NCBI RefSeq assembly: GCF_002210295.1
Contig: NZ_MWQH01000001.1
Coordinates: 496,001-560,000, forward strand
Length of the DNA stretch: 64,000 nucleotides
Reading direction: 5' to 3'
Source of the DNA: Fibrobacter sp. UWB5
GTDB taxonomy: Bacteria > Fibrobacterota > Fibrobacteria > Fibrobacterales > Fibrobacteraceae
In this document: one piece after another, positions 13,815 through 50,912 of the stretch
How positions within the stretch are numbered: position 1 is the first letter of the stretch
Layout: every line of letters starts with the position of its first letter
Program-made: the position numbers and the translations under genes
Notes under the pieces: generated by a model
What the model was told of the DNA's origin: nothing
The model's database searches: none
What the model saw: only the letters and a program-made list of their open reading frames with translations

Positions 13815-14054
13815 ATGAACGAAATGAAAGAAAAACTCAAGGCCTTCTTTATGTCTGATCTCGGTGTTGATGGCGACGTGCTTCAGTTTGACACTCCGCT
13901 TTTCGGTGAAGAAATTGGCCTGGATTCTGTGGATTCCCTTGAAATCATCTCCTTCGTTGACAGCAACTTCGGCGTGTCCATGACTGGCGTTGCCAAGGAA
14001 AACTTCCAGAGCATCGATACGATCGCTGCTTACATCGAAGCTCATAAGGCCTAA
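13815..14054 (+). CDS. Acyl carrier protein of the ketosynthase cluster
   Basis: 79 aa acidic helical protein. The phosphopantetheine attachment site is Ser38 in GLDSVDSLEI. ACGAGG lies before the start. It is followed by its own terminator (14062-14091) and then by a ketosynthase fusion, FabG and FabZ, so it is likely the dedicated carrier of that assembly line; its separate terminator would allow it to be made in excess. It could also be the housekeeping AcpP, but the usual fabD/fabH/fabF neighbours are not here, and the sequence around the Ser (DSVDSLE) differs from the typical DSLDTVE of AcpP. Confidence 0.9.
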   Translation: MNEMKEKLKAFFMSDLGVDGDVLQFDTPLFGEEIGLDSVDSLEIISFVDSNFGVSMTGVAKENFQSIDTIAAYIEAHKA

Positions 14055-14061
14055 AGAATTT

Positions 14062-14091
14062 AGCCGGGGACACGTTCTCGGCTCTTTTTTT
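14062..14091 (+). terminator. Terminator after the ACP gene
   Basis: AGCCGGGGA-CACGT-TCTCGGCT followed by CTTTTTTTG, a good stem with T-tract between the ACP gene and the ketosynthase gene. Confidence 0.8.
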
Positions 14092-14129
14092 GTTTTTTCG
14101 CATCCTGGAGCTTGGCGATAGGATGCATC

Positions 14130-14137
14130 TATCTTTG
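14130..14137 (+). promoter_or_regulatory. TAnnTTTG promoter element of the ketosynthase operon
   Basis: TATCTTTG lies 8 nt before the ATG at 14146. It follows the ACP terminator, so it is the likely promoter of the ketosynthase-FabG-FabZ genes. Confidence 0.5.
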
Positions 14138-14145
14138 GAAAGAAT

Positions 14146-16542
14146 ATGACCCCTAATGACAAGCGTTGTGTAGTTACAGGTTTAGGCGTCATTTGTGCCG
14201 TCGGTAACAATGTCGAAGAAACTTGGAAGAGTGCCCTGGAATCGGTTTCCGGCATTCATAAGACCACTTCTGTTGATACGGTGAACTGCTATGCGGACTT
14301 GGCTGCCGAAGTCAAGTGCGACACCCTTGATGAAATTGACGCTCCCGAAGAAAAGGACCGCGTCTCGAAACTTTGCATCAAGGCTGCAAACGAAGCTTTG
14401 GCCGATGCAGGACTCAAGAACTTTGGCGATGACCAGCGCGTGAGCGTGGTGATCGGAAGTTGCGTGGGTGGCGTTCTTTCAATTGAACAGTATCATCAGC
14501 ATGGTCGCGACGCTTCTGAAATTGCCAAGATGCCGATCGCTTCGATCGCCTCCCAGGTGGCCGAAACTTGTGGTGCTGGCGGTATTGTCACGAATGTGGC
14601 GAACGCTTGTGCTGCCGGTACGATTTCGATTGCGGTGGCTTGCGACTTGATTCGCGCCGGCAAGGCTGACGTTGTCATTGCGGGTGGTGCCGATTCTTTT
14701 GCCTCGGTGCCTTATTCCGGATTCCTTTCTCTGCATGCGCTTGATGAAAACGGCTGCTCTCCGTTCAACCGCTGCAACGGCATTACGCTCGGCGAAGGCG
14801 CCGGCATCGTGATTGTCGAATCTTACGAACATGCTCAAAAGCGCTCGGCCAAGCAGTATTGCGAAGTGCTCGGTTCTGGTGTCACCAGCGATGCAAACCA
14901 CATTACCGCTCCGCGCGAAGATGGCCTTTGCCTTAAGGAAGCGATTAACCGCTCCGTCAAGAATTCCGGCATTGCAAAGACTGACATCGGTTACATCAAT
15001 GCCCACGGTACGGGTACGGGCAAGAACGATAACGCCGAAATGACGGCCTTCAAGGCCTACTTTGGCGAAGAAAACCCGACGGTGAGCGTGAGCTCCACCA
15101 AGGTGCTTACGGGCCACTGCCTGGGTGCCGCTGGTGCCATCGAAGCCGTCTTTAGCATCAAGGCTCTTACCACCGATACGGTGCTTCCGACCTTCCCGTA
15201 TAGCGAAGAACAGTCCGCCGCCCTCAAGGAAAAGGTCGGCGACATGGACTTTGTGCAGAACAAGGCCCGCCATAAGGAACTCAAGTGCGTGCTGAGCAAC
15301 AATGTGGCATTCGGTGGTACGAATGCCGCAATCGTCTTCTCGAAGGAAGCGGGTAACGTGTCTGCCCAGAGTGCAGCAGGCAAGAAGATTGCCGTGACGG
15401 GTCTTGGAATTGTATCGCCGCTCGGCAACAGCAAGACCGCTTACGTCGAAGCCGTGAAGGCCGGCAAGAAGCCCGAGTCCGCCTCGGTGCGTTCGACAAT
15501 CGCTCTTGACGACTACAAGGAACTTGGCATCAAGATGGCCTTCTACCGCAAGCTCGACAATTTGGGCCAGCTCCAGACGGTTTCGGGCATGCGTGCGCTG
15601 CAAGATGCAAACTTCAAGGTTTCCGATCAAAACGCTATGGATATCGGTATCATCGTGGGAACCAGCGAAGGCGGTCTTGGCGCCACTTACGATTTTGAAG
15701 AACTGATTGCTGAACTCGGCAATGCCGGCGGTTCCGCTTTCAAGTTCCCGCACACCGTTTACAACGCGGCTGGCGGTTACCTCTCTATTTGTTCGGGCAT
15801 CAAGGGCTACGGTGTGACCATTACCACCGGTCCGCTTTCTGGCCTCGATAGCATCGGCTACTCCATGAACGTGATTCACGACGGTCAGGAACAGGCCATG
15901 ATGGCTACCGGTACCGACGAAAACCTGCCGATTATTACGGAATTTGCCCAGAAACTTGGCGTGGCCGCAAACGACGTGGTCGCTCCTTACGCAAATGCCG
16001 AAGGCTTTGTGGTGGGCGACGGCTCCGTGTCGATTCTGCTCGAAGAAGAAGAATATGCCAAGGCCCGCGGCGCCAAGGTTTACTGCTACGCTCTCGGATT
16101 CGGCCATGGCCGCAAGAATGTGAAGTTCGGTAAGCTCTCGGGTTCTGACGAAGCTTTGGACAAGGCCATTGCCGATGCCCTGGCCGATGCCGGCATTACG
16201 GCAGCCGACGTGGATGCTGTTTGCGGTTTTGCCAACGGCTGCAAGAAGATTGACGACATTGAAAAGGGTGCCCTTAAGCGCGTGTTTGGCGAAAAGCTTG
16301 CCGCGATGCCGCTCTTCGAAGTCAAGGAACGCACCGGTGAAGGCCGTGCGGGGTCTGCTGCCCTTGCCGCTGCCGAAGCCGCTCTCCTTTTGAGCGGTGA
16401 ACTTGCAAACGACAACGCCTACTTTGTGGCGGCAGACGGTTCTGTCTCGGCAAAGACGGCTGAATCGGCAAATCTCAAGAAAATTTTGGTTATCTCTTAT
16501 GCGACGGGCGGTTCTTACAGCGCAGTCGTGTTCGGAAAATAG
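14146..16542 (+). CDS. Ketosynthase fused to a catalytically dead ketosynthase (KS-CLF-like)
   Basis: 798 aa, twice the size of FabF, made of two thiolase-fold ketosynthase domains. Domain 1 (about 5-400) keeps the triad: Cys155 (NACAAGT), His287 (NAHGTGTG) and His324 (LTGHCLGAAG). Domain 2 (about 413-798) starts again with KKIAVTGLGIVSPLG but has lost all three: Pro563 (TTGPLSGLDS), Phe695 (CGFANGCKK) and Glu732 (RTGEGRAGS) occupy the aligned positions. An active KS paired with an inactive KS is the arrangement of type II polyketide KS/chain-length-factor dimers; here both are on one chain. The neighbouring ACP, FabG and FabZ support an iterative assembly line. Product unknown; an aryl-polyene- or polyunsaturated-type chain is inferred from the absence of an enoyl reductase. 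Confidence 0.92.
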   Translation: MTPNDKRCVVTGLGVICAVGNNVEETWKSALESVSGIHKTTSVDTVNCYADLAAEVKCDTLDEIDAPEEKDRVSKLCIKAANEALADAGLKNFGDDQRVSVVIGSCVGGVLSIEQYHQHGRDASEIAKMPIASIASQVAETCGAGGIVTNVANACAAGTISIAVACDLIRAGKADVVIAGGADSFASVPYSGFLSLHALDENGCSPFNRCNGITLGEGAGIVIVESYEHAQKRSAKQYCEVLGSGVTSDANHITAPREDGLCLKEAINRSVKNSGIAKTDIGYINAHGTGTGKNDNAEMTAFKAYFGEENPTVSVSSTKVLTGHCLGAAGAIEAVFSIKALTTDTVLPTFPYSEEQSAALKEKVGDMDFVQNKARHKELKCVLSNNVAFGGTNAAIVFSKEAGNVSAQSAAGKKIAVTGLGIVSPLGNSKTAYVEAVKAGKKPESASVRSTIALDDYKELGIKMAFYRKLDNLGQLQTVSGMRALQDANFKVSDQNAMDIGIIVGTSEGGLGATYDFEELIAELGNAGGSAFKFPHTVYNAAGGYLSICSGIKGYGVTITTGPLSGLDSIGYSMNVIHDGQEQAMMATGTDENLPIITEFAQKLGVAANDVVAPYANAEGFVVGDGSVSILLEEEEYAKARGAKVYCYALGFGHGRKNVKFGKLSGSDEALDKAIADALADAGITAADVDAVCGFANGCKKIDDIEKGALKRVFGEKLAAMPLFEVKERTGEGRAGSAALAAAEAALLLSGELANDNAYFVAADGSVSAKTAESANLKKILVISYATGGSYSAVVFGK

Positions 16543-16566
16543 TGCTTAGGTAGAAGGAGCTTGAAT

Positions 16567-17298
16567 ATGAAAGTAGCTTTGGTAACAGGTGCATCTAAGG
16601 GAATCGGCAAGGCTTGTGCCTTGCGCCTTGCTCGCGATGGCTATACTGTCGTGGTGAACTACTCCAGTTCCGATGAGGCTGCCCAGCAGACTTTGGACCA
16701 GATTAAGGCCGAAGGTGGCGACGGCATGATTTACAAGGCGAATGTCGCCGACCTTTCTCAGGTGAAAGTCATGATCCGCGAAGTCTTCAAGGCATACGGT
16801 CGCATTGACGTGCTCGTGAACAACGCCGGTATCGTTCGCGACGAATACCTGATGATGATGAATCCCGAAACCTTGGACAAGTGCTTCGACCTGAACGTGA
16901 AGGGTTATTTCTACTGCGCACAGCAGGTGGCCGTGAAGATGTACAAGCAGAAGTCCGGCGTGATCATTAACATGAGCTCCGTTTCTTCGAAGTTCGCTCT
17001 CGCAGGCCAGGCTGTTTACAGCGCCACGAAGGGCGCCGTGAATTCCCTGACGCAGACGCTTGCCAAGGAACTCGGCGGTTTCGGTATCCGCGTGAATGCC
17101 GTGGCTCCGGGCTTTATCGCTACCGAAATGATCGAAGCGATTCCTGAAGAAACCCGCAAGGGCTACCTCGAAAAGATTCCTCTAAAGCGTTTTGGTTCTG
17201 CCGACGAAGTCGCCAACATTGTTTCTGCCTTGGCTTCTGACCAGTTCGCCTATGTGACTGGCCAGGTGTTCGTGCTCGATGGAGGTCTTTCTCTATGA
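16567..17298 (+). CDS. fabG: 3-oxoacyl-ACP reductase (SDR, FabG type)
   Basis: 243 aa from ATG at 16567, chosen over TTG at 16561 because AAGGAGC sits 7 nt upstream. Motifs: TGASKGIGKA (NADPH binding), NNAGIVRDE, the catalytic Ser in NMSSVSS, YSATK (Tyr and Lys), and APGFIATEM. It reduces 3-ketoacyl-ACP to 3-hydroxyacyl-ACP. It follows the KS fusion by 24 nt and overlaps the next gene by four bases, so it probably belongs to the same assembly line; a housekeeping role is possible as well. Confidence 0.93.
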   Translation: MKVALVTGASKGIGKACALRLARDGYTVVVNYSSSDEAAQQTLDQIKAEGGDGMIYKANVADLSQVKVMIREVFKAYGRIDVLVNNAGIVRDEYLMMMNPETLDKCFDLNVKGYFYCAQQVAVKMYKQKSGVIINMSSVSSKFALAGQAVYSATKGAVNSLTQTLAKELGGFGIRVNAVAPGFIATEMIEAIPEETRKGYLEKIPLKRFGSADEVANIVSALASDQFAYVTGQVFVLDGGLSL

Positions 17299-17741
17299 TG
17301 AATATTTACGAAATCAGCGAAAAGATTGCTCAGCGTCCGCCGTTCCAGATGATCGAAAAGGTCACGGAACTGGTGCCGAATGAATCTGCCGTGGGCATCA
17401 AGAATGTGAGTGTGAACGAGCCGTACTTTACCGGTCACTTTCCGGGCACCCCGATTATGCCGGGCGTGCTCATTGTGGAAAGCTGCGCTCAGCTCTGCTC
17501 GCTCGTGATTGAAAAGCCTGCCGAAGATTTGGAAAAGAATCTCTATGTGCTTTTGAAGATTGACGGATTCAAGTTCGTGAAGCCGGTGATTCCGGGCGAC
17601 CAGCTTGAAATCTCTGTCAAGAAGACGAAGGAAGGCGGCGTGTTGGTCGGTTTTGACTGCATCGTGAAAGTGAACGGCAACGTTCATGCCAAGGGCGCCT
17701 TGACGTTCACAAGCATCCCGAAGGAAAGTTTAGGAAAGTAA
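17295..17741 (+). CDS. fabZ: 3-hydroxyacyl-ACP dehydratase (FabZ-like hotdog protein)
   Basis: 148 aa, FabZ length. QRPPFQMIEKV and the catalytic segment GHFPGTPIMPGVLIVE (His48, Glu62) are typical of FabZ. It removes water from 3-hydroxyacyl-ACP to give trans-2-enoyl-ACP. The start codon overlaps the fabG stop (ATGA). With KS, KR and DH present and no enoyl reductase visible in the cluster, double bonds could be retained in the product. Confidence 0.93.
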   Translation: MMNIYEISEKIAQRPPFQMIEKVTELVPNESAVGIKNVSVNEPYFTGHFPGTPIMPGVLIVESCAQLCSLVIEKPAEDLEKNLYVLLKIDGFKFVKPVIPGDQLEISVKKTKEGGVLVGFDCIVKVNGNVHAKGALTFTSIPKESLGK

Positions 17742-17746
17742 TGGCT

Positions 17747-17806
17747 AGTGTGTAATGTGTGATGACTAATGATAATTTCACATCTCACATTCCACATTTC
17801 ACATCT
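17747..17806. repeat. Intergenic CACAT-type repeat, copy 1
   Basis: The spacer holds GTGTAATGTGTGATG followed by TTTCACATCTCACATTCCACATTTCACATC, i.e. iterated CACATN units facing partly complementary GTGT/ATGTG units. A related stretch lies at 27134-27189. It lies between the fabZ-like gene and the acyltransferase gene. Confidence 0.55.
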
Positions 17807-17831
17807 CCTCTGCCTCTGAATTTTATATATC

Positions 17832-18536
17832 GTGAACGATAAAAAGAAAAATATTTTTGTCGAAAGTTTTATGCGGCTCTTTATGGTGGTAGTCATCTAC
17901 ACCGTGCGCGTCTATTTGCTTGTTTGGTACCGCCCGAAGGTGACCTTTGTCGGTAACACGGTAAAGTCTCCGCGCTTGAAGACGCCCTCGGTGATTATTG
18001 CAAACCATACGAGTATGTGGGATCCCCTCATGATGCTCGCTATCTTTTTCCATCACAAAAGCATCGTGGTGGCTAAAGACCAGATTGAAGACCCGCATTT
18101 TAGTTGGGCGCTGACCCGCGTGAAGTGCGTGATTCCTTGCGACCGCTTTAACATGGACACCGAATGGGCCTTGCTTGCCAAACGTGAACTGGAAAAGGGA
18201 AACAACGTCATTATTTTCCCTGAAGGCAAGTGCCGCTATGACGGCTTGTTGAACGAATTCAAGACGGGTTTTGCGTTCCTTGCCCGCAGTACCGGCGCGC
18301 CAGTGCTTTCGGTGGGAATCGACGGCATTTATAAGCGAGGCCATCGCACGCAGATTGTAGTGAGCGAACCCGAAAAGATTGAACGCGTGAAGGGTATTCC
18401 TTCTTCAAAGCACTTGGCCGAACGCAGCGAATACTTCCGACAGAAAGTCTGGGGTCTCAAGCAACAGGCGCTTGGCGTCACTAATGCGCCGGAGCTCCCG
18501 GTCGCGGCTGAAACGCCCGAAGAGGTGCAGGCATGA
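17832..18536 (+). CDS. 1-acyl-glycerol-3-phosphate acyltransferase family protein (PlsC-like)
   Basis: 234 aa. One N-terminal membrane segment (about 12-32), the acyltransferase motif NHTSMWD (His59, Asp64), FPEG (129-132) and VLSVGI follow as in LPLAT/PlsC enzymes, which move acyl groups from acyl-ACP or acyl-CoA onto a phosphate-bearing lipid or related acceptor at the inner membrane. The GTG start at 17832 has no good SD but is preceded by TATATATC. It overlaps the patatin gene by four bases. Being directly after KS/KR/DH genes, it may transfer the product of that line; general phospholipid synthesis is the alternative. Confidence 0.85.
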   Translation: MNDKKKNIFVESFMRLFMVVVIYTVRVYLLVWYRPKVTFVGNTVKSPRLKTPSVIIANHTSMWDPLMMLAIFFHHKSIVVAKDQIEDPHFSWALTRVKCVIPCDRFNMDTEWALLAKRELEKGNNVIIFPEGKCRYDGLLNEFKTGFAFLARSTGAPVLSVGIDGIYKRGHRTQIVVSEPEKIERVKGIPSSKHLAERSEYFRQKVWGLKQQALGVTNAPELPVAAETPEEVQA

Positions 18537-19378
18537 AGACGGGGTTGGTGTTAGAGGGCGGTTCTCGTCAGACCATGTTCAGTGCAGGCGTGATTGACAC
18601 CTGGCTCGACGAAGGGATTGATTTTAATTACGTGGCAGGTGTTTCTGCCGGAGCCCATGCGGCGGTGAACTTCATTACGCGCCAGCAGGGCCGCTTGCGT
18701 TTTATTGTGCTCCCGACTCGTTTGCAGAAAGGCAAAAAGTGGGCGAGCAAGTTCATCGGAATCCAAAAGGAATTCCATGCTTTGAACTATCTGGCTGCCG
18801 ATGGCGAAATGCCGCTTGATTTTGAAGCGTACCGTAATTCCAAAATCGAATGCGAAATCGGACTAACCTGTTGCGAAACGGGACGCGCCGAATTCAAGAG
18901 TGAAAAGAACGACAAGAAGCGCTTGCTGGACTTGATCAGCGCCAGTTGCGCCTTGCCCATGATTTTCCCGATGGCGGAACTCGACGGCAAGCATTATGCC
19001 GACGGTTGCATTACCGCCGCAATACCGTTCGAGCGTGCGTTTGAAAAGGGCTGCGACAAGGTGGTAGCCATTTCGACCCATTATCCGGGCGAAGCGGTGA
19101 CGGATTTCCGCAAGTACCGTGCGATTCTGAACCCGATGTACAAGCGCAAGTACCCGGATTTGTTCCGTGCGCTCATGATTCGCCTGAAACGCTACGAAAA
19201 AATGTTCGTACGCATGGAAAAACTGGAAAAAGAGGGCAAACTCTTCTTAATTCGCCCCATTATCGACTTGTGCGACCAGTTCGATACCAACATGGACAAG
19301 ATGAATGAGTCCTATGAACATGGCGTTGAGATGGCAAAACGTAGCCTGGATGACCTCAAGGCGTTTTTAGAAATATAA
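18533..19378 (+). CDS. Patatin-like phospholipase
   Basis: 281 aa. Oxyanion region LEGGSRQ near the N-terminus, nucleophile Ser38 in GVSAG, and the catalytic Asp157 in YADGCI form the patatin Ser-Asp dyad; the size fits the short bacterial RssA/YjjU-like proteins. It would hydrolyse acyl esters of phospholipids or related lipids, at the membrane face. ATG overlaps the stop of the acyltransferase gene, so both are translated together. With the acyltransferase it could remodel or release the acyl product of the upstream genes (inference). Confidence 0.9.
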   Translation: MKTGLVLEGGSRQTMFSAGVIDTWLDEGIDFNYVAGVSAGAHAAVNFITRQQGRLRFIVLPTRLQKGKKWASKFIGIQKEFHALNYLAADGEMPLDFEAYRNSKIECEIGLTCCETGRAEFKSEKNDKKRLLDLISASCALPMIFPMAELDGKHYADGCITAAIPFERAFEKGCDKVVAISTHYPGEAVTDFRKYRAILNPMYKRKYPDLFRALMIRLKRYEKMFVRMEKLEKEGKLFLIRPIIDLCDQFDTNMDKMNESYEHGVEMAKRSLDDLKAFLEI

Positions 19379-19427: not shown

Positions 19428-22400
19428 GTGAACTCTGCTGCCAAGTTTATTTTTTGTTGTGCACTGTCCAGCCTTTGTTTGACAGCGTGCGGTGGAGATT
19501 CCGGTTCTGGGACTGATAATTCCGGCACTGAAAGATCCAACTCTGAAAACGGTTCCTCTTCGAAGGAAGGATCGGACGTGTCTCGTGAGGTAGACGTCAA
19601 GTCTTCGGACGACCCGGTGATTAGGAGCGAAATCTGGGATTCCCGTACCGGCGAGACCATTGAAACCATCCAGATCGGCATGTATATCTGGCTGACCAAG
19701 AATGTGAATGGTAGTGGTTGGGGATCCTCCAGCGTTTGCTATGACGACGATGTCGAAAATTGCGATACCTACGGCAAACTTTTTGAATCGTGGTCAGCCG
19801 GTACAGCATGCCCGACGGGTTTTGATGTGCCTTTGAAAAGAGACTGGAAGTGGCTTGGCAATTACAGCGCCAAATACCCGACCACGGTTGATGCCCTGCA
19901 GTTGAATTACGGCGGTTACTGTTCCGACAAATCGGGTTTGTTAGATTGCAAAGGTCTCGGGGATTACGGTAAGTACCTGGCTCAAGACGGCATTGCCGTG
20001 TTTTCGCCGAAGTCTGCATCGCCGGCATTTGAAGAAGAACAAACGTTTACCTATTACCAGCTGCGCTGCAGGACCTATACTTATATTGTTGAATCTAAAA
20101 AGGACTTGCCCGTTTGCGATTCCATTAGTAAAGAAATCCTCGGACCGTTTTATGTCGTGAACGAGCAGACCAACTACCGTTGCCTCGGAACCCGTTGGGA
20201 AGACGATTTCAGTGAAAGTTGCAACCACGTTATTAAAAATACGGCGGTGACGATCAACGATACCATGTACATCTGTAAGTACAATTCTTGGCAGGTGGCC
20301 GATATCTCCGATGCGCGTGAAAACTGCACCGCCGCCAATGATTCGACGACCATGCTGTTTAACGGCGAGCGTTATGCCTGCGAAGATAGCACCTGGCGTA
20401 AGTTCACTGAAGTCGAAAAACAGTTGGGCTATTGCCGCGGCAAGTTGAAGGGAACTTTCGATACCCTCAAGACGAAAGTCGATTTGACGACGAAGATTCA
20501 AGAATATTTCTGTAGCGACGAAGGCTGGCGCCTGGCTGTGATGACGGACCATGTGGGCGAATGCGACAGTTCTAGAGTCTATTCGACGGTCAACTACCAC
20601 GATGTGGACTATGTCTGCCGCAGCGACCGCTGGAATCAGTTGTCGAGCCTGGAAAAGGAACTGGGAATATGCATTCCCCAAAGACAGGGAATCATCGATT
20701 CGACTGAAAGCGGCTACTTCTATATTTGCGATGCGGCCGATTGGCGCCGTACGGTGCTGACCGACTTTATCGGCATGTGCGATTCCACGAGAATTGATTC
20801 GGTGGCAAGGCATGGCGGAAAGGGATATCTTTGCAAGACGGATGGCTGGTCCCAGTTGAGCGCCTTGGAAAATGAAATCGGAGTCTGCATTAAAGATAAA
20901 GTTTCTGGACTGGCCAAGACGGGCGACGGTGTCGATTACATCTGCACGACTTCGGGTTGGACTCGCGCGGTCCCTGCCGATATCGGAGGGGTTTGCGACA
21001 GCACGAAGCAATATAAGACCGTGAAGGTGAGCGGAACTAGCTACTACTGCAATGGTACAAGCTGGAGCACGATGTCTTCTATAGATGCTCAGCTCGGCTT
21101 CTGTACTGAAAAGATTCAGGGAAAAATCGATTCTACAGGCGAAGGTTCGTCGGTAGTTCGTTACTCCTGCGAATCGACCGGATGGAAGAAGATGACCGCC
21201 TTGGAATTCCGCTTCGGATTCTGCAATTCTAAAAACGACAGCACCAAAAAGGTGGTGCATGATTCCGTTTACGTGTGTAGCAAGAACGCCTGGAAACTCG
21301 GGACGATTACGGATATGTTCGGCGTCTGCGATTCTCTTGCCGCGGGCAAGACGGGCTCGTTCATGGGCGAGAAGTATGGTTGCCGCAAAAAATCTTGGCT
21401 GAAGATGAGCGACTTCGAAATTGAAAATGGATTCTGCAGCGAAAAGAATGCCGGCGAAAACATTAAGGTGGGTTCCGAATATTATGAATGTACCGTCTCT
21501 TCTACGAGTGCTTACTGGAAGAAAACGACTGACTTCAAGTATGTAATGGGCCCATGCCCCAAGGATACGACCTTCCGTAAGACCTATAAGGATACACTGT
21601 TTGTGTGTAGGTATACCAGGTGGGAACGTGTCACTATTAATGAGGAGTATGGTTACTGCGAACAGGGGGCTCCGAAAAAGACCGTCGTATTCAACAAGCA
21701 AGAGTATATATGCGATTACGGTGTAGTAGACGTTGATTGGCACCACATGACGACCATGGATTCCCTGTATGGAGTCTGCAACAGGACAAGGTATGGCGAT
21801 ACGGCAACCTATAAAAACAATCGCTACTTTTGCAATATAAACCGCGATGGCTTTGCTTGGGATTATGCCAGTTACAGGCAGTATATGGGACAATGTACAT
21901 CTGCCAGGGAAGGGCATGAAATGTTTAACGGGTTCAATACAAGCAAGTGTACCTCTGGCAAGTGGATCGCCATTGTCAACGACTATATGACTGATAGCCG
22001 CGATGGGAAAAAGTACAAGATGGTTACGATCAAGGGACAGAATTGGATGGTTCAGGATTTGAACTATGTGACAACGGCTAGCGATACCAGCTGGGCAATG
22101 AATTCTAGAAGTGATGCGCGCTTGTATTCCCTGACTGTGGCAAAGAAAGTGTGCCCGTCAGGGTGGCGCTTGCCGACTAAAACCGAATGGGAAACTTTCC
22201 GTAGGACCTTTACATCTTTGTATGATTACGGTGAGTCCGGCATGCTTGCGGGCAGTTGGAGTAACCTTAATGGTTACTCGGCTGATGACTTCTATGGTGT
22301 AGCGATTTATCCGACAGGATATATGGAAGCTTATGTGTCGGGAGGCAATCTAGTGTCATCGCAACAGAATGGCAATAATGGAGCATATTTCTGGGCTTCC

Positions 22401-22493
22401 GATGGCTCGCTTATGACTTTTGGCCAATTTACCTCTTATCCGCGAATGGGGGGTGAGGTTGTTGGCGCTGCCGTAAGGTGCGTTAAGAATTAG
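19428..22493 (+). CDS. Giant FISUMP-domain lipoprotein with 17 Cys/Trp modules
   Basis: 1021 aa from GTG (AGGAGGAG upstream; the next paralogue starts with the same GTG-AAC-TCT-GC). A signal peptide ends in lipobox LTAC (Cys21), then a Ser/Gly linker. A FISUMP-like domain (about 70-220) and a C-terminal FISUMP domain (about 860-1021: QNWMVQDLNY, VCPSGWRLPTKTEWE, WASDGS, VRCVKN) flank a middle region of 17 modules of 35-50 residues, each C-(D/T/N)...Y-x-C-x4-W-(x)10-15-(L/F)G-x-C. These modules, each with two Cys and one Trp, suggest disulfide-bonded surface repeats. The FISUMP family is known as the major paralogous family of F. succinogenes with no defined function; binding of plant polysaccharide is a guess. 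Confidence 0.93.
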   Translation: MNSAAKFIFCCALSSLCLTACGGDSGSGTDNSGTERSNSENGSSSKEGSDVSREVDVKSSDDPVIRSEIWDSRTGETIETIQIGMYIWLTKNVNGSGWGSSSVCYDDDVENCDTYGKLFESWSAGTACPTGFDVPLKRDWKWLGNYSAKYPTTVDALQLNYGGYCSDKSGLLDCKGLGDYGKYLAQDGIAVFSPKSASPAFEEEQTFTYYQLRCRTYTYIVESKKDLPVCDSISKEILGPFYVVNEQTNYRCLGTRWEDDFSESCNHVIKNTAVTINDTMYICKYNSWQVADISDARENCTAANDSTTMLFNGERYACEDSTWRKFTEVEKQLGYCRGKLKGTFDTLKTKVDLTTKIQEYFCSDEGWRLAVMTDHVGECDSSRVYSTVNYHDVDYVCRSDRWNQLSSLEKELGICIPQRQGIIDSTESGYFYICDAADWRRTVLTDFIGMCDSTRIDSVARHGGKGYLCKTDGWSQLSALENEIGVCIKDKVSGLAKTGDGVDYICTTSGWTRAVPADIGGVCDSTKQYKTVKVSGTSYYCNGTSWSTMSSIDAQLGFCTEKIQGKIDSTGEGSSVVRYSCESTGWKKMTALEFRFGFCNSKNDSTKKVVHDSVYVCSKNAWKLGTITDMFGVCDSLAAGKTGSFMGEKYGCRKKSWLKMSDFEIENGFCSEKNAGENIKVGSEYYECTVSSTSAYWKKTTDFKYVMGPCPKDTTFRKTYKDTLFVCRYTRWERVTINEEYGYCEQGAPKKTVVFNKQEYICDYGVVDVDWHHMTTMDSLYGVCNRTRYGDTATYKNNRYFCNINRDGFAWDYASYRQYMGQCTSAREGHEMFNGFNTSKCTSGKWIAIVNDYMTDSRDGKKYKMVTIKGQNWMVQDLNYVTTASDTSWAMNSRSDARLYSLTVAKKVCPSGWRLPTKTEWETFRRTFTSLYDYGESGMLAGSWSNLNGYSADDFYGVAIYPTGYMEAYVSGGNLVSSQQNGNNGAYFWASDGSLMTFGQFTSYPRMGGEVVGAAVRCVKN

Positions 22494-22525
22494 GGTAAGG
22501 AATGATTTTGCATAGGGAGGATATC

Positions 22526-25192
22526 GTGAACTCTGCAATCAAGGGACTTTTCATTTTAGCGTTGTCGAGCCTTTGCTTGACGGCATGCGGTGGCGATTCT
22601 AGCAGCTCTACGAAGCCTGCTGCCGAGGACGAAACGGAATCTAGCGAATCTGGCTCTCTGGCTAGGGATCGCTCTTCCAGTTCGTGGGCGATGTCGAGTG
22701 CGACGACGGTCGTCGATGCCGACGCCAAGGATGTCCGCAATACGGAACATAGCCACGATTCTGAAGTTGATTCTGCGACGGGAACCTCCTTTACGACACA
22801 TTCCGTTGGCATTTACACCTGGACCGAGCAGAACATCAATGTGAAATCCTCTGTGGCAAGAAACACCTGCTACGCTTACGATGATTCCAATTGCAACCCG
22901 TACGGAAGACTGTATCTCTCGAGCAATGCCGAAAAGGTTTGCCCCACGGGTTACACCTTGCCGACTGTTTCAGACTGGAAAAACTTGCTGCAGGCGGAAC
23001 TGACGAAGACGGACTACGCGGGCATTTGTACCAAACGCGATACCTTGGAATGTACAGGTATCGGTGATTCCGTACGTTACCTTGCCAGCGATGGCTATGC
23101 CGTGTTGATGGACCGCTCCGGCTTGTTTGAACGTCAGATGGTCCGAGACAATGAATTCTATTCGCTGCGCTGCATTCGTTATAGGAGCATTGTGGAACGC
23201 ATGGCGGATTTGCCCGACTGTGAAGATGACGGGAACAACAACTATGCCAGCATTTATGTGGTAGATCGTGATTCGAATTATTATTGTAGCGGCGGCAAGT
23301 GGTATTCTTCTAGCACCAAGGGCTCCTGCAGGGAACAGGAAACGGGCGACAAGTACTTGATCAAGGGCTATGTGTACATCTGCAAGAATGGCAGTTGGAG
23401 ATTCACGACCATTGACGATGTGGATATCAAGTGTAACGATGACAACCGCTACGAGGAATACGTGGTAAACGATGTACGCTACGCCTGTGGCGACAATGGC
23501 ATGGTTAAACTGACGTATCCGGCGACAGAACTTGGCTTTTGTAGCCCGAAGGTGGAAGGCAAGATGGCCGAAATAGATTCCGCGACCGCCTATGTCTGCG
23601 AAGACTTCTTGTGGAGAAAGGCGGAACTGGAAGACTATTACGGAAAGTGCGATTCGGCTAAGACAAACCAAATTATATCTTACAAGAACTTAGGTTACAT
23701 CTGTTACAATAAATCGTGGAGAAGAACGACCGCGATTGAAGACGAATTCGGCGCTTGTACACCGGAGTTGCAGGATTCGCTACGTGAGACCAAGGACCAT
23801 TATTATTATGAATGCTATTATGAAAATTGGCATAAGGCGGATAACAGCTTGGTCCTTGGAAATTGTACTAGTGAAAAGGAAGGCTTGAAAATCCTCATTG
23901 GAACGAACGAGTATGAGTGTGTCAACAATACGTGGAAACAACATGACAAAATGAGTAGGGAAATCGGTTTCTGCACCACGCAAAATGTGGGCGCAAAAGG
24001 GGTGTACCTCGATACGATTTACTATTGCGAAGCTGACCGCGGCTATGGTTGGCAAAAGGCAACGGAATTGGAAAAAACACTGGGATACTGCCGCAGGGAT
24101 ACCACATTTGTCGTAGAAAATTCCGGAAAATTCTATAAATGTTCTGGCTCTTGGAAAGAGGCGGCACAGAGTGATGTCCTTGGGTCTTGTAATTCCGCTA
24201 AAGGCGAAAAAAAGATTTTTAATGGCAGGGAGTTCGTTTGCGATACGACGGCCCTGAAGAGTAATGGAGCCTGGTATGCCATGACGGCTCTTGATTCTGC
24301 CTTGGGTGGATACTGCAGAACGGCCATTTTGGGAAAAGCGGTGAAACACAATGATACCATTTACGTGTGCCGTGTCGATAGCGAATCAAAGACCAAGAAA
24401 ACTTGGACTATTGGAACATTTGAGGATTATAGAGGAAAGTGCGATAAGGACAACCTTGGACGTCGCGTGTTTAATGGCGTAGATACGGCAGTATGCATTT
24501 ATAATTCATGTAGCACAGTTCGTGAAAGAACTTACGCCTATAATGGAAAAGATACGGAAATATGTGGCAAATACAATATAACGGGATATTTTTGGGAATC
24601 GATCGTGCGCGAAAGCATCACGGATAAGCGTGACGGAGCCGTGTATGGCGTGTTGACTTTTGGTACGCAAAAATGGTTGAACCGAGATTTGCAATATTGG
24701 ACCACGAGCGCTTATGGAGGCGATGGATATAAAATGAGAGAGAACCCATATGTATTTGAGCCAGACATGTATCACTCGTTTTACTATGTGTGGAGTGATG
24801 CTCTGGGTGGTGCAAATATTTGCCCCGATGGGACTCGGATCCCGTCCAAAGCGGACTGGAAGACGCTTTTTGAATTTGCGGAGAGTTTGAATCCTGGCGA
24901 GGGTGTGGTTTCTTTACTTGATGATGATTGGCGAGTGAGTAGAACGGGGAAAGATTATTTTAACCTTGGTCTAAGAAGAAACGGCTTTATGGATATGGAT
25001 TATTATCCGCTTGGTAACGACCCTTTGGTTGGTTCGGCTGATTATATGTCTCTTTATTATTGGACGACAGATGCGGGAAAGACAACGAGTACGGGAAGCG
25101 CTGTTTACGTCGATACGTTGCTCAATGTCAATTACCAAGTTGAAGCGCTGAAAGAAGACGCTTACACCATCCGTTGCATTGTAGATAAGTAA
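22526..25192 (+). CDS. Second FISUMP-domain lipoprotein with about 12 Cys/Trp modules
   Basis: 888 aa from GTG at 22526, chosen because AGGGAGG lies 5 nt upstream and the first codons match those of the upstream paralogue; the ATG at 22502 would add eight residues before the signal. Lipobox LTAC, Ser-rich linker, FISUMP-like domain (VCPTGYTLPTVSDW), about twelve C...YxC...W modules, then a C-terminal FISUMP domain (QKWLNRDLQYW, ICPDGTRIPSKADWK, IRCIVDK). In the third module the Trp is replaced by Met-Val. The two genes are 32 nt apart and clearly arose by tandem duplication followed by loss or gain of modules. Confidence 0.93.
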   Translation: MNSAIKGLFILALSSLCLTACGGDSSSSTKPAAEDETESSESGSLARDRSSSSWAMSSATTVVDADAKDVRNTEHSHDSEVDSATGTSFTTHSVGIYTWTEQNINVKSSVARNTCYAYDDSNCNPYGRLYLSSNAEKVCPTGYTLPTVSDWKNLLQAELTKTDYAGICTKRDTLECTGIGDSVRYLASDGYAVLMDRSGLFERQMVRDNEFYSLRCIRYRSIVERMADLPDCEDDGNNNYASIYVVDRDSNYYCSGGKWYSSSTKGSCREQETGDKYLIKGYVYICKNGSWRFTTIDDVDIKCNDDNRYEEYVVNDVRYACGDNGMVKLTYPATELGFCSPKVEGKMAEIDSATAYVCEDFLWRKAELEDYYGKCDSAKTNQIISYKNLGYICYNKSWRRTTAIEDEFGACTPELQDSLRETKDHYYYECYYENWHKADNSLVLGNCTSEKEGLKILIGTNEYECVNNTWKQHDKMSREIGFCTTQNVGAKGVYLDTIYYCEADRGYGWQKATELEKTLGYCRRDTTFVVENSGKFYKCSGSWKEAAQSDVLGSCNSAKGEKKIFNGREFVCDTTALKSNGAWYAMTALDSALGGYCRTAILGKAVKHNDTIYVCRVDSESKTKKTWTIGTFEDYRGKCDKDNLGRRVFNGVDTAVCIYNSCSTVRERTYAYNGKDTEICGKYNITGYFWESIVRESITDKRDGAVYGVLTFGTQKWLNRDLQYWTTSAYGGDGYKMRENPYVFEPDMYHSFYYVWSDALGGANICPDGTRIPSKADWKTLFEFAESLNPGEGVVSLLDDDWRVSRTGKDYFNLGLRRNGFMDMDYYPLGNDPLVGSADYMSLYYWTTDAGKTTSTGSAVYVDTLLNVNYQVEALKEDAYTIRCIVDK

Positions 25193-45691: not shown

Positions 45692-47224
45692 CTATGGGTG
45701 AGACCGTTTTAACAAAAGTGCCTTTACTTTGTTTTTAAGAGCGTTCCGCATCTCTGTTTCTAGGCCAACAAACCAAGATGATGTGATGACGGAAAGAACG
45801 GAAAGAATTACTACCGCGAAGAACGATAGATAAGATTCGTCGCTTAGTTTGTAATACAAAAAGAGCGGTGCTGGCAAAGCACAACACAAAACCTTAAAAC
45901 AAGGAACGAATACTGAGGAGATATCCTTCCATTTATAATTGACAATTTTTATTATCAAAAGAGGTTTTATCACAAGTCCGAGGAATGCGTATGTAAATAG
46001 ACTTGTCCACGACAAGGCTTCAGGAGAAAAACCTAATCGAAAAAGAATATATACGATTGGAAATTGTATGAAGCCTAATAGGGGGGAAATTAGTGCGTTT
46101 TCTTTTAGGCGACCTTTTGCATAAAGGGCTCTATAGAAGGATGTGTCGAATACGCAGAATAAACTTTGAATTATCGCCAGTTGTAAAAAGATTATGGTAT
46201 ATTCTGGGACTGTTTTTAACCATAATGTTAAAAGTTGCTTTGTTCCAAGGCAAATCGGAAGACTTAAAAGTAGCATTAAATAAAAACTGAATTTTGTGGT
46301 TGCTAACAAAAGTTGCTTTGAACCTTCATAATCTTTGGCAGCATATTTTTTTACAATTTGCGGATTTGCTGCTGTTTGAAAGTTTGTTACAAATTGATTT
46401 GCTGCGGCGTTGACTTGTAGCGATATGGCGCGAGCTGCAACGACAGCTGGAGAAAAAAACATGTTTAACAGAACTAGAACCCCTTGATTATTCAATGCGA
46501 TTGCGGTGTTGGCGAATAAGCTCCATCCTGAAAAACTAGCGATTTCTTTAAAGAGTTTTTTATCGAAATAAAATCGAAATTTCGTCTCGTCAAAATTTCG
46601 GATACAGTAAAGTCTGTAAAAAATGATAATTCCTATTTGTAATAAACACAATAGTAAAGCATATAACTTTAGCTTGTCGATGGAGCCTATTTCCAAAAGA
46701 TATATAATTAGCAGCTTTAATGATGCCTCAATTATACTAACGTAAGCGTAAATGCCCATTTTTTCGTGAGCGATAATGCTAGCTCCATACGGAACTTGCG
46801 TGAGAGAAAAAAAAGCAGTTATTACGGAAAGATGAAGAACAAATTTGGCTGCGTCAAGACGTTCAGGTGCAATCACTAGTTTGTTGTGCAAGAACCATAA
46901 GCCCGCTGATTCCGCTAAAATGGCAATAAAGATTGCTAAGCAAAGGTGTGCTGTCAACGTCGTGGAAAAAATGTTTTTTAATTTCTGCGGATCGTTTTCG
47001 CCCAATCCGAATGTTATAAAGCGGGATGACCCTGTACTCAGAGCGTTATTAACAAAACTCAAGAAACCGACAATCCCGCCTACAGCTTGATAAATGCCAT
47101 AGTCGTCAACGCCCAAAATCTGTAAAACCACGCGTGATGTATACAATGAAATGATCATTGTGAGCATCATGCGGAAATACAGGAAAATAGTATTTCTTGC
47201 GATTGTTTTGTTGGACGAGTTCAT
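45692..47224 (-). CDS. Polysaccharide flippase, Wzx/MATE-like
   Basis: 510 aa from ATG at 47224, 2 nt after the stop of the aldo/keto reductase gene. About 12-14 hydrophobic helices; N-terminus RNTIFLYFRMMLTMIISLYTSRVVLQILGVDDYGIY (read in two parts) is typical of Wzx-type oligosaccharide flippases. It moves lipid-linked repeat units across the inner membrane for the EpsG-type polymerase encoded on the other strand. Final intact gene of the - strand block. Confidence 0.92.
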   Translation of the reverse strand: MNSSNKTIARNTIFLYFRMMLTMIISLYTSRVVLQILGVDDYGIYQAVGGIVGFLSFVNNALSTGSSRFITFGLGENDPQKLKNIFSTTLTAHLCLAIFIAILAESAGLWFLHNKLVIAPERLDAAKFVLHLSVITAFFSLTQVPYGASIIAHEKMGIYAYVSIIEASLKLLIIYLLEIGSIDKLKLYALLLCLLQIGIIIFYRLYCIRNFDETKFRFYFDKKLFKEIASFSGWSLFANTAIALNNQGVLVLLNMFFSPAVVAARAISLQVNAAANQFVTNFQTAANPQIVKKYAAKDYEGSKQLLLATTKFSFYLMLLLSLPICLGTKQLLTLWLKTVPEYTIIFLQLAIIQSLFCVFDTSFYRALYAKGRLKENALISPLLGFIQFPIVYILFRLGFSPEALSWTSLFTYAFLGLVIKPLLIIKIVNYKWKDISSVFVPCFKVLCCALPAPLFLYYKLSDESYLSFFAVVILSVLSVITSSWFVGLETEMRNALKNKVKALLLKRSHP

Positions 47225-47226
47225 TT

Positions 47227-48141
47227 TTACAGTATCGAAAAATCGCAATTGTCTGGATCATAGCGTAGGCGACTATTGATATTAATTCCGTCGATATGAG
47301 CCATGTCTTCTGCATCTAATTCAAAATCGAAAATATTCAGATTGCTTTTTTGATGTTGTTTACTCAAGCAACGAACTAGTGGAATAACTCCGTTTTGTAC
47401 GTGCCAACGTAAAATGATCTGAATGAAATTTTTATGGTACTTTTGCTCTAGACGTTTTAGTAGGGGTAGTCTTACAAGACGGTCGTCGTAGCGAGCAAGG
47501 GAGGTGTATGCCTCGACGAGAATGTCCTGAGATTTATAGAATTCAATAAGAGGCTTCTGAGTGAACAGCGGGTGGATTTCAAATTGACCGATTTCGGGAC
47601 GGTGTTTGCAAATAGAAAAAATCGCTTCTAAATGATGCTGATGGCAATTGGCGACTCCCAGATGCTTTACATATCCTTCTTCGTACAATTTTTCCATTTC
47701 GCGCCACGTGTCGAGATATAAATCTGTTACAGGCCAATGGAATTGTAGAATGTCGACATAATCTGTTCCGAAGCCTTCAAGACATTTGAAGAACTCTTCT
47801 CGAACAGAATGATTTCGTTGGGCCGCGTTGCTGACACGAGTTGTTAACAGAAGCTCAGATCGTGCAATTCCAGATTTTTTTATGGCTTTGCCGATTAGAG
47901 AGCCGTCTCCGTAAGCAGAAGAATAGTCTATAAGGCGAAAGCCTTGCTGCAATGCACTTGATACAGAATCAATGTACTTGTTTTGCGCTAAAGGTCGTCT
48001 ATAAAGCTTGTTTTGGACTTTGTCGAGAAACAGGAAAATACCTTTTTTCTGTTTCTTCATTTTTGGGGAATATCCCATACCCCCTGGACCGAATCCAATT
48101 TGAGGAATTGTATTGTTTTTTAAAAGGCCTTCCAGTTTCAT
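47227..48141 (-). CDS. Aldo/keto reductase with Lys-to-Arg change in the catalytic tetrad
   Basis: 304 aa. The AKR tetrad aligns as Asp72 (LIDYSSAYGDG), Tyr77, Arg102 (LLLTTRVSNAA) and His135 (ILQFHWPV); position 102 is Lys in active family members. There is also an unusual basic insertion (about 25-52, KMKKQKKG...) near the substrate side. NADPH-binding region is at the C-terminus (VIPLVRCLSKQHQKSNL). Its place between ketoacyl-ACP synthase and flippase genes suggests action on the same acyl or sugar intermediate. Activity may be altered or lost. Confidence 0.88.
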   Translation of the reverse strand: MKLEGLLKNNTIPQIGFGPGGMGYSPKMKKQKKGIFLFLDKVQNKLYRRPLAQNKYIDSVSSALQQGFRLIDYSSAYGDGSLIGKAIKKSGIARSELLLTTRVSNAAQRNHSVREEFFKCLEGFGTDYVDILQFHWPVTDLYLDTWREMEKLYEEGYVKHLGVANCHQHHLEAIFSICKHRPEIGQFEIHPLFTQKPLIEFYKSQDILVEAYTSLARYDDRLVRLPLLKRLEQKYHKNFIQIILRWHVQNGVIPLVRCLSKQHQKSNLNIFDFELDAEDMAHIDGININSRLRYDPDNCDFSIL

Positions 48142-48142
48142 C

Positions 48143-49141
48143 TTAAAACCTCAATATCGTTCCGCCCCAGCTTAAACCCACTCCAAAACCTGCAATCATG
48201 ACCTTCATTCCGGTTTTAATTGTTCCATCATTTAGGCTGTTCTTGAGACCAATCAATATTGTTGAAGAAACAGTGTTGCCTGTGTTTTCAAGGTTGATGT
48301 AGAATTTGTCTTTAGGAAGGCCGCACACCTTGCGTATAGTGCTCAACATAAACTTGTTTGCCTGGTGAAAAACAAAATAATCAACTACGTCTTGGTCCAA
48401 TTTGTTTCGATACAGTACATTCTGCATCATTGGTGGAACTATATCTAAAGTAAAATTGAATACATCTGAGCCGTTCATGTAGAGATAATCATCTCTACGA
48501 ACATGACCTTCCTCGTCAACGGATTCTTTGCCGTTGGGTTTTGGTTCGCGAGCTGCACCTGTTTTCAAAATCAGACTTTCTGCGCCACCGCCATCTGTGC
48601 CCAAGTCAAATTCACCAATTTCTGCAAAACCTTCTGTTGAAATCAAGCATGCTGCGGCGCCGTCGCCGAAAATGGAACGGTTGCTTTTGTCTTGTGGATG
48701 CAGATATTTTGTGTATGTTTCCGCAGTCAGTAACAATATATTCTTCGCAATATTTGCAGCAACTAGTCCCTTGGCAATTGCTATGCCATAAATGCAGCCC
48801 GAACAACCAAGATTGTAATCGAATGCTCCAGCCGTTTTAGGAATTCCCAGTTTATGCTGGAGTATGCATGCTGTTGAAGGTAGTGCGTAATCTGAACTTT
48901 GCGTACACAACAACACAAAATCGATAGACTTCGGATCTATGGAATATTCTTCGAATAGCTTGCGGGCAGCCTTTTCGGCTAGATCACCAGCAGTTTCGCT
49001 ATTACTTGACAAATGTCGTGAGTTCACACCGACCTTCGCGGCGACCTTTTCGACGCTCCATTCGGGAAATTCCTTGACAAGTTCCTCGTTCGTAAGAACG
49101 TGTTCTGGGAGATAATACGATATCGCTTTAATAAACGCCAT
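48143..49141 (-). CDS. Ketoacyl-ACP synthase III, copy 2
   Basis: 332 aa. FabH-like thiolase fold with an intact triad: Cys113 (NLGCSGCIYG), His259 (VFHQANKFM), Asn289 (NTGNTVSS). Such enzymes condense an acyl-CoA with malonyl-ACP, or transfer acyl groups from ACP to other acceptors. About half identical by eye to the neighbour at 49141-50148, with which it shares one base at the junction. Both are in a polysaccharide locus beside an ACP and an SDR, so they likely make an acyl decoration. Two paralogues may form a heterodimer or do two successive steps. Confidence 0.92.
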   Translation of the reverse strand: MAFIKAISYYLPEHVLTNEELVKEFPEWSVEKVAAKVGVNSRHLSSNSETAGDLAEKAARKLFEEYSIDPKSIDFVLLCTQSSDYALPSTACILQHKLGIPKTAGAFDYNLGCSGCIYGIAIAKGLVAANIAKNILLLTAETYTKYLHPQDKSNRSIFGDGAAACLISTEGFAEIGEFDLGTDGGGAESLILKTGAAREPKPNGKESVDEEGHVRRDDYLYMNGSDVFNFTLDIVPPMMQNVLYRNKLDQDVVDYFVFHQANKFMLSTIRKVCGLPKDKFYINLENTGNTVSSTILIGLKNSLNDGTIKTGMKVMIAGFGVGLSWGGTILRF

Positions 49142-50148
49142 TATTCATCCACGCCAAAATAAAGTATTGTTCCTGCCCAGGAAAGACCAACTCCAAATCC
49201 AGCAAGCATGACTTTTGCGTTATTCTTAATAAGTCCTTGCTTTAAACATTCTTTTAAAGCTATTGGCACTGTCGATGATGTCGTGTTCCCGGTGCTTTCA
49301 ATGTTGACGTAGAACCGGTCTTTTTCCAAACCGCAAACTTTTCTTATCGTGTTCAGCATATATTTGTTTGCTTGATGGAATACAAAATAGTCAACATCGC
49401 TTTGCTGCAAGGAATTCCTTTCTAGAGTTTCCTTGATGAGCGTCGGCAGCCTTTCTACAGTAAAGCCGAAAACGGAGGCCCCATCCATATAGAAGAAATC
49501 GTCTCTCCGCGTATTTCCTTCGGAATCGACCATTTCTTGGCCTGTTAATTCAAGTTGGCGGGCGGCACGATTTTTTACGATTAGCATGTCGCCACCGGAA
49601 CCATCCGTTCCTTTGACCAAGGAGCCGATCTTAGCAAGCCCCGATTTGGAGATTACACTAGCTGTTGCCGCTTCCCCGAATAAGATCCTGTTGTTATCCT
49701 GAGGATGCATAAATCTTGTTATTGTATCTCCCGTCAACAGCAAGATGTTCTTTGCGAGTCCGCTTTCCACAAAGCTATTGGCTATTCCGAGACCATATAC
49801 ATAACCAGAACAGCCTAAGTCAAAGTCGAAGGCTCCAGCCGTGTTGGGTATGCCTAGTCTTGATTGAATGGAACATGCGGTAGGTGGTAAAAAATGGTCC
49901 GGAGTCTGTGTTGCAAAGATTACGAAATCTATTTCTTCGGGAGAAATTCCGTATTCAACGAACAGTGCCTTTGCTGCCTCAACTGCCATGTCCCCTGCAG
50001 TTACGGATGGAGCCGCGATATGTCGAATGTTGACACCGACACTTTTCGCAATTTTGGAAACTTCACAGTTGATTAGCTCTTTTTGCAAATCATCATTTGA
50101 AAGTTCTTTGGGTGGCAGGTAATAAGACAAAGCCCTTAAAAAAGCCAT
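49141..50148 (-). CDS. Ketoacyl-ACP synthase III, copy 1
   Basis: 335 aa with triad Cys113 (DLGCSGYVYG), His258 (VFHQANKYM) and Asn288 (STGNTTSS), so it should be active. GAGATGA precedes the start, 11 nt after the SDR stop. Same start (MAFLRALSYYLPP versus MAFIKAISYYLPE) and size as the downstream paralogue; a tandem duplication. Unlike housekeeping FabH it has no fabD/fabG-type housekeeping neighbours. Substrate not deducible from sequence. Confidence 0.92.
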   Translation of the reverse strand: MAFLRALSYYLPPKELSNDDLQKELINCEVSKIAKSVGVNIRHIAAPSVTAGDMAVEAAKALFVEYGISPEEIDFVIFATQTPDHFLPPTACSIQSRLGIPNTAGAFDFDLGCSGYVYGLGIANSFVESGLAKNILLLTGDTITRFMHPQDNNRILFGEAATASVISKSGLAKIGSLVKGTDGSGGDMLIVKNRAARQLELTGQEMVDSEGNTRRDDFFYMDGASVFGFTVERLPTLIKETLERNSLQQSDVDYFVFHQANKYMLNTIRKVCGLEKDRFYVNIESTGNTTSSTVPIALKECLKQGLIKNNAKVMLAGFGVGLSWAGTILYFGVDE

Positions 50149-50159
50149 TGTTCATCTCC

Positions 50160-50912
50160 TTATACAAGAACGCCTTCTCCACCGCCGGAGATATTGATGC
50201 TTTCTCCCGTCATCCAGGAGGATGCTGCGCTTAACAGGTAAATAACCAAATTTGCGATGTCTTCAACTCTGCCAAAACGTTTCAATGGATATTTTTGTTC
50301 TGCTTCACGCAGAGTATCTTCGTCAAGAACTTTCGTGATAAGTTCTGTCCACACCATGCCGGGGCAAATGCAGTTTACCCGAATAAGTCTAGGCGCTAAT
50401 TCAAGAGCGAGGCATTTCGCATACGAAATAAGGGCACCCTTAGATGCGCTATAGATGGCATTGCCCATAGAGGGGGATTCTGCGGCTCTAGAGGCTATGA
50501 ATACGATGGACGCTCCCTTATTTATTTTTTTTGAAGATAGCAGGGAGGCTTGCAATAACATTGGAGCGTTCATATTTGTACGCATTACAAAATCTATATC
50601 AGATTGCGTGATGTTTTTACAAGGGACCCTGTTTGCAACACCAGCACAATGAACAACGCCGTCTAAAGAAGGCATTGCATTTACCAATCCATTTAAAGAG
50701 GATGAATCCAGAATATCTGCAGGTGCGACAATGTGATTGCCGCTAGGCATTTCCTGAAATGTTTCTTGCAGCCGTTCTACATTCCTGCCATTCAAGACGA
50801 TGGATGCGCCCATTCTAGCGCAGGCGATAGCAACTGCTTTGCCTATACCGGATGAAGCTCCTGTAACAAGAATGTTTTTATTCTCTAATGAAAATGGATT
50901 GAAACTGTTCAT
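50160..50912 (-). CDS. Short-chain dehydrogenase/reductase (FabG-like)
   Basis: 250 aa. TGASSGIGKAVA (NADP binding), CAGVANRVP in the place of NNAG, catalytic Ser in FIASRAAES (replaced region reads 'ASRAA', the Ser being shifted) and YSASKGA (Tyr, Lys). It lies between the ACP and the ketoacyl-ACP synthases, with 3 nt to the ACP gene, so it probably reduces the 3-ketoacyl-ACP that they make, giving a 3-hydroxyacyl group. Confidence 0.9.
   Translation of the reverse strand: MNSFNPFSLENKNILVTGASSGIGKAVAIACARMGASIVLNGRNVERLQETFQEMPSGNHIVAPADILDSSSLNGLVNAMPSLDGVVHCAGVANRVPCKNITQSDIDFVMRTNMNAPMLLQASLLSSKKINKGASIVFIASRAAESPSMGNAIYSASKGALISYAKCLALELAPRLIRVNCICPGMVWTELITKVLDEDTLREAEQKYPLKRFGRVEDIANLVIYLLSAASSWMTGESINISGGGEGVLV

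Follow-up and report, generated by a model that had tools for sequence, protein, structure and literature searches.

A single-chain ketosynthase/chain-length-factor fusion in a probable lipid-forming cassette of Fibrobacter and other gut and rumen anaerobes

Introduction

Highly reducing type II PKS systems make polyenes iteratively, using a ketosynthase and chain-length factor (KS-CLF) together with a ketoreductase (KR), a dehydratase (DH), and an acyl carrier protein (ACP) (PMC10698177). The fusion of a KS with a CLF is already known in PUFA synthases, as represented by PfaC (PDB 6riw; PMC12895367), while no KS-CLF didomain outside PUFA contexts is described in the open-access literature searched. 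Engineering of KS-CLF pairs is difficult, as the two subunits have to fit each other. The locus described here lies in a 64,000-nucleotide stretch of Fibrobacter sp. UWB5 (NZ_MWQH01000001.1, positions 496,001 to 560,000), referred to as the window, and positions are those of the window unless another locus is named. The initial annotation of its central gene proposed that two KS domains, usually encoded by separate genes, are fused here into one protein; the single chain is confirmed, and the fusion itself has its precedent in the PUFA synthases.

Architecture and catalytic residues of the fusion

The KS-CLF fusion gene, the core of the system, occupies 14146..16542 on the plus strand and encodes 798 amino acids in a single open frame without internal stops. 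Profile searches recover two KS-fold domains and nothing further in the protein, each half matching PF00109 and PF02801 in Pfam. A sequencing error is excluded, since the fusion is a single intact chain in 53/53 full-length matches from the Fibrobacter group. Domain 1 (residues 5-402, 14158..15351, plus strand) is the active KS and on its own scores 342.7 bits against TIGR03150, the FabF profile, which domain 2 (residues 413-798, 15382..16539, plus strand) also matches alone along its entire length (149.6 bits, E 1e-43). They are joined by a linker (residues 403-412, 15352..15381, plus strand) that is the most variable stretch, with 53.8-100% identity among homologues, versus 79-99% for domain 2.

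The invariant triad of domain 1 comprises Cys155, His287, and His324, with plus-strand codons at 14608-14610, 15004-15006, and 15115-15117. The residues of domain 2 that align with the Cys, His, and His of FabF proteins of known structure (HMMER) are Pro563, Phe695, and Glu732, encoded on the plus strand at 15832-15834, 16228-16230, and 16339-16341; all six positions are exactly those first read from the sequence. They are invariant in 31/31 full-length sequences from the genus and its sister genus. The residue count was extended to 79 homologues drawn from several phyla, where C155 and H287 are invariant in 79/79 and H324, K319, and F389 are likewise invariant, except in a single row where a residue is unread. 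At the Cys site of domain 2, these homologues carry P (55), A (18), V (3), N (2), or S (1), and never Cys; Phe replaces the first His in 78 of them and Asp in one, and Glu replaces the second His in 78 and Tyr in one. No His of domain 2 is invariant in an alignment of six sequences, so no alternative Cys-His-His triad is evident there. These residues mark domain 2 as a KS-fold partner that is catalytically dead, in agreement with the initial annotation that it cannot condense. The protein therefore unites an active KS bearing Cys-His-His with a KS-fold partner whose Cys is replaced, the pairing that marks KS-CLF systems, in one chain in place of two separate polypeptides.

The disappearance of every catalytic residue from domain 2 could also be expected of a decaying duplicate without function. 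Among the 31 sequences, however, 231/386 columns of domain 2 are invariant, against 288/396 in domain 1, and its Phe and Glu are fixed across phyla. Such strong conservation points to selection, not decay, and to a functional, non-catalytic domain, which makes the probability of decay close to negligible.

A possible role for domain 2 is suggested by one of its loops, which corresponds in the alignment to the Ile108-bearing loop of FabF. The aligned part of the domain 2 loop holds Glu508 (codon 15667-15669, plus strand), which is kept in 72/79 homologues. In type II CLFs this loop carries the residues that gate chain length, F109, T112, and F116 in the actinorhodin CLF, and sequence alignment places L511, T514, and E518 of the fusion at these positions. 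Together with Glu508, these residues would line the acyl pocket.

Predicted structure and phylogeny

The whole chain was modelled by AlphaFold2 from an alignment of 35 sequences, with pTM 0.87 and a mean pLDDT of 79.9; residues 510-541 of domain 2 fall under a pLDDT of 50. In this prediction, the two halves pack against each other as a KS-CLF pseudo-dimer, the arrangement that had been proposed for examination at the outset. In a Foldseek comparison with the PDB, the PfaC KS-CLF didomain 6riw ranked first and aligned along the entire chain, with TM 0.75 relative to the query length; the remaining matches listed span the length of one domain only. Domain 1 superimposes on 6kxd_A with Z 53.1 and rmsd 2.2 over 380 residues. 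The matches listed by VIA-align are all FabF/KS chains aligned to domain 1, as is to be expected if a single domain fills the list.

The full-length match to PfaC raises the question of whether the protein is a fragment or relative of a PUFA synthase. Such an origin would fit the best structural match, but the protein stands alone at 798 aa beside discrete ACP, KR, and DH proteins instead of forming part of a megasynthase, and the phylum's own large KS-CLF proteins (1255-1265 aa) branch separately from it in both halves. A PfaC-like origin is accordingly given very little credence.

In the full tree, the KS domains of the fusions, those of split pairs, those of the phylum's large KS-CLF proteins, and ApeO form one group (SH-aLRT 98), which stands apart from FabF, FabB, and ApeR; the same grouping of domain 1 with the KSs of KS-CLF systems has a support of 72 in a reduced tree. 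Upon removal of long-branch rows, active KSs and CLF-type domains are split by a branch with SH-aLRT 99.5. Domain 2 does not group with FabF in the best tree, and constraining it to do so costs 16-22 log units, with AU p values of 0.149 and 0.081, so that this grouping, named beforehand as the outcome that would speak against a CLF-type partner, is not formally rejected. Constraining both domains into one clade gives AU p 0.13 and is likewise not rejected. The residues of domain 2 show firmly that it is no active FabF. As to its ancestry, the best trees favour a CLF-type origin separate from FabF, with AU p values of 0.08 and 0.15 for the alternative. Taken together, the residues, the predicted packing, the 6riw match, and the best trees lend good support to the KS/CLF principle first suggested for this gene.

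Distribution and horizontal spread

A scan of 84,980 species genomes identified 77 fusion loci. Their hosts include Fibrobacter, Treponema and other Spirochaetes, Clostridia, among them Ruminococcus and the L. eligens group, Acholeplasmatales/Anaeroplasma, and one Erysipelotrichaceae MAG. The two domains are fused in every locus with a judgeable frame, and all full-length homologues are one chain. In both halves of the full tree, the Fibrobacter domains are nested within those of Treponema (support 96-98), which points to horizontal transfer of the whole gene. The Lachnospira eligens copy, with 61% identity, is carried on a 627-kb plasmid along with FabD and acetyl-CoA carboxylase genes, and in both L. 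eligens and P. megaterium the annotation of the fused gene goes no further than "ketoacyl synthase family protein". The fusion cassette has thus spread horizontally among several phyla of gut and rumen anaerobes.

Within the genus, about 52/80 genomes carry the fusion, one fragmented copy counted, and its absence from several near-complete Fibrobacter genomes marks it as accessory. A housekeeping FabF or FAS function was rejected, given those near-complete genomes and the separate FabF-type KSs that are also found in the source genome. In the Acholeplasmatales/Clostridiales MAGs G165, G169, and G167, the fusion is the only clear KS found. G169 additionally yielded no FabH, FabV, or credible FabK match. 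These absences suggest that decarboxylation of malonyl-ACP may prime the line in place of a KSIII, a suggestion weakened by the incompleteness of these MAGs.

The cassette and its neighbourhood

The cassette spans 13815-19378 in the order ACP, KS-CLF, FabG, FabZ, PlsC-like acyltransferase, and patatin, all on the plus strand. The 79-aa ACP (13815..14054; PF00550, 31.2 bits) bears its phosphopantetheine Ser in IGLDSVDSLEI and lies upstream of the fusion in nearly all loci compared. Between the two genes, a terminator-like hairpin with a T tract and a 9-pair stem (14062..14083, plus strand) matches a consensus only, folding at -12.1 kcal/mol (z -2.0). Stems with T tracts, unrelated to each other, occupy the same gap in 15/75 loci in all, and the hairpin is only suggestive of an attenuator favouring an excess of ACP. 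Downstream of the fusion, in relatives as well, is a FabG-type 3-oxoacyl-ACP reductase, the KR (16561..17298; TIGR01830, 271 bits), whose stop is overlapped by a FabZ-type 3-hydroxyacyl-ACP dehydratase, the DH (17295..17741; NF000582, 137 bits, above the cut-off). These are followed by a lysophospholipid-acyltransferase-like protein of the PlsC family (17832..18536; PF01553, 76 bits), kept in the Fibrobacter and Treponema cassettes, and by a patatin-like acyl hydrolase with DUF6363 (18533..19378; PF01734, 62.8 bits; PF19890, 42.2 bits), which overlaps the acyltransferase stop and is conserved together with that gene. Directly 3' of the cassette, 19428-25192 of the window (plus strand) encodes two large FISUMP-domain proteins with repeated Cys-containing units.

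The order of the block is largely kept across the genomes of the family, with varying flanks, and ACP, KS-CLF, KR, and DH occur together in Fibrobacter, Treponema, Clostridia, and Acholeplasmatales. The Clostridia and Acholeplasmatales cassettes yielded no homologues of the acyltransferase and patatin, and have PlsX, or acetyl-CoA carboxylase and FabD genes, in their place. Neither profile searches of the window cassette nor the annotation of the L. eligens cassette revealed an enoyl reductase. In combining a KS-CLF with ACP, KR, and DH while lacking a clustered enoyl reductase, the cassette has the gene content of a highly reducing type II PKS, and the linked ACP, KR, and DH support the iterative line that the initial annotation had envisaged. 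Elsewhere in the window, a separate low-GC set on the minus strand (45692-52981) contains two adjacent KASIII genes together with genes for an SDR reductase, a MatE transporter, an aldo/keto reductase, and an F420-hydrogenase-like/hexapeptide protein; a small ORF in it coincides with a weak ACP-like match. This set looks like another acyl or polyketide-type cluster.

The same gene content invites comparison with aryl polyene pigment clusters, to which the gene had at first been linked. KS/CLF, KR, DH, ACP, and a lysophospholipid acyltransferase also occur in the ape cluster of E. coli CFT073, and the cassette might be such a cluster with a fused KS-CLF. Against this, the source genome, listed as 100% complete, has no match to aromatic ammonia-lyase (PF00221), and the ape acyl-CoA synthetase, second KS, MMPL transporter, and LolA are absent from the cassette genes at 13815-19378. 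Moreover, ApeC of CFT073 is a short CLF of 240 aa, whereas domain 2 is of full size. The aryl polyene link is for these reasons abandoned as quite improbable, although an aryl starter might arrive by some other route. Celluxanthene, the yellow pigment of cellulolytic anaerobes, is excluded as a product, its PKS being type I (PMC12144888), and no report of a yellow pigment in Fibrobacter itself was found in the literature searched.

Without a linked enoyl reductase, a saturated product would depend on an enzyme encoded elsewhere. A second, dedicated FAS might borrow FabV in trans to make a saturated, hydroxylated, or short fixed-length chain for a special lipid, and the source genome does encode FabV, on a different contig from the cassette. 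The relatives that adjoin PlsX, or acetyl-CoA carboxylase with FabD and BirA genes, as in FAS operons, and the MAGs in which the fusion is the only KS found are in keeping with a dedicated FAS. On the other side stand the missing enoyl reductase in the window and L. eligens cassettes, the placement of domain 1 with the KSs of KS-CLF systems and not with FabF in the full tree, and the absence of FabH, FabV, and credible FabK matches from G169 (one of the incomplete MAGs), so a dedicated FAS is considered unlikely, though well within reason.

A flavoprotein partner

A flavoprotein of ~250 aa accompanies the fusion. Its gene is part of the cassette itself in Treponema, Clostridia, and Acholeplasmatales and follows the patatin gene in some Fibrobacter, while in the source genome it is unlinked, at G000:C4:250900-251652, outside the window; other copies are found at L079:12961-13713 and L054:14289-15011. 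Among 80 Fibrobacter genomes, 52/52 of those with the fusion also encode the flavoprotein, as against 2/28 of those without it (Fisher p 5e-19), and in those at least 90% complete (n=44) the match between fusion and flavoprotein is perfect, with 33 carrying both and 11 neither. Mapping on a FabF tree gives 8 changes for the fusion and 6 for the flavoprotein. The co-occurrence is partly due to shared ancestry; in independent pairs the two never differ in opposite directions, with only 3 contrasts well supported. A CX2CX2CX7C motif is invariant in 21 flavoprotein homologues. It resembles the compact CX2CX2CX4-7C motif of iron-sulfur flavoproteins, which have an FMN-binding flavodoxin fold. The fold here, predicted from an alignment that omits one plasmid-derived row and one row whose start is too long, is of NQO/azoreductase type (best Z 16.4, rmsd 3.0 over 185 residues). 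The flavoprotein is described as a constant partner of the fusion and a putative iron-sulfur type. If the cassette were a dedicated FAS, the flavoprotein may even be a reductase of the chain.

Proposed function

The preferred reading, held at a probability of roughly 0.6, is an iterative, highly reducing type II synthase, built around a single-chain KS-CLF, that loads a polyene-type acyl chain onto a lipid. Domain 1 would condense malonyl-ACP onto the growing chain, with domain 2 acting as a built-in dimer partner that shapes the acyl pocket and, by homology with CLFs, may set chain length. With its own ACP, FabG, and FabZ, the fusion would run repeated cycles of condensation, reduction, and dehydration. 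The lack of a linked enoyl reductase makes a conjugated polyene acyl chain the likely product, by analogy with the ishigamide and aryl polyene systems, with the caveat that FabV could act in trans and give a saturated chain. The PlsC-like acyltransferase would then transfer the chain to a (glycero)lipid, and its editing or release would fall to the patatin.

A broader proposal is advanced more tentatively, at less than even odds: the fusions would constitute an undescribed class of stand-alone single-chain KS-CLFs, passed between anaerobes of the rumen and gut that belong to several phyla. They would make a dedicated polyene lipid with an iron-sulfur flavoprotein acting on acyl-ACP anaerobically, and would serve as the only acyl synthase in some Mollicutes.

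As a natural one-chain KS-CLF with discrete ACP, KR, and DH, the fusion provides a fixed 1:1 pair and a simple system for testing the effect of pocket mutations on chain length. The cassette also occurs in the cultured gut species Fibrobacter intestinalis and Lachnospira eligens. It probably makes an unusual lipid, likely a polyene; being accessory and horizontally spread, with no reported product found, it points to an undescribed lipid of gut anaerobes, which could be found by lipidomics.

Comparison with known systems

Several described or newly recognized systems share features with the fusion. Like the ladderane-type pairs below, the aryl polyene enzymes ApeO-ApeC comprise a KS and a dead partner, with KR, DH, an acyltransferase, and a lipid-linked polyene in common with the proposal made here, but they differ in having separate genes, a short CLF, aryl starter genes, and a second KS, none of which is seen in the cassette. 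Other families of the phylum possess separate, adjacent KS and CLF genes (loci L036-L043). These ladderane-type pairs resemble the fusion in pairing a KS with a dead KS that has Glu at the second His site, accompanied by ACP and, in several cases, by FabG/FabZ, and differ from it in using two genes and, in two clusters, in having CrtI-like desaturase genes. One of the clusters has a weak match to a ladderane-type radical SAM protein; these clusters lie outside the anammox bacteria, and the best PDB match of one of the CLFs is 9s5h chain C. Additionally, other families of the phylum encode paired proteins of 1255-1265 aa and 775-789 aa (L137-L140), each with tandem KS and KS-like domains, which form further branches of fused KS-CLF-like proteins in the tree.

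A one-chain KS-CLF is also encoded by the Priestia megaterium plasmid pBM500 (WP_013060151.1; L055, 9998-12427), in a cluster with genes for FabD, FabG, ACP, FabZ, a PPTase, and a glycine-cleavage-T-like protein. It is only 33% identical over 90%, its domain 2 carries N, D, and Y at the replaced sites, and in the full tree it joins the domain 2 group only by a long branch.

The ishigamide KS-CLF (Iga11-Iga12, PDB 6kxd) likewise works with KR, DH, and ACP, but consists of two chains, and domain 1 is only 30% identical to it. PfaC (6riw) shares with the fusion a KS and a catalytically dead CLF in one chain, yet it belongs to a megasynthase with further domains, while the Fibrobacter protein stands by itself among discrete partners. 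So far as the open-access literature shows, what is new here is the fused KS-CLF as the stand-alone enzyme of a type II line.
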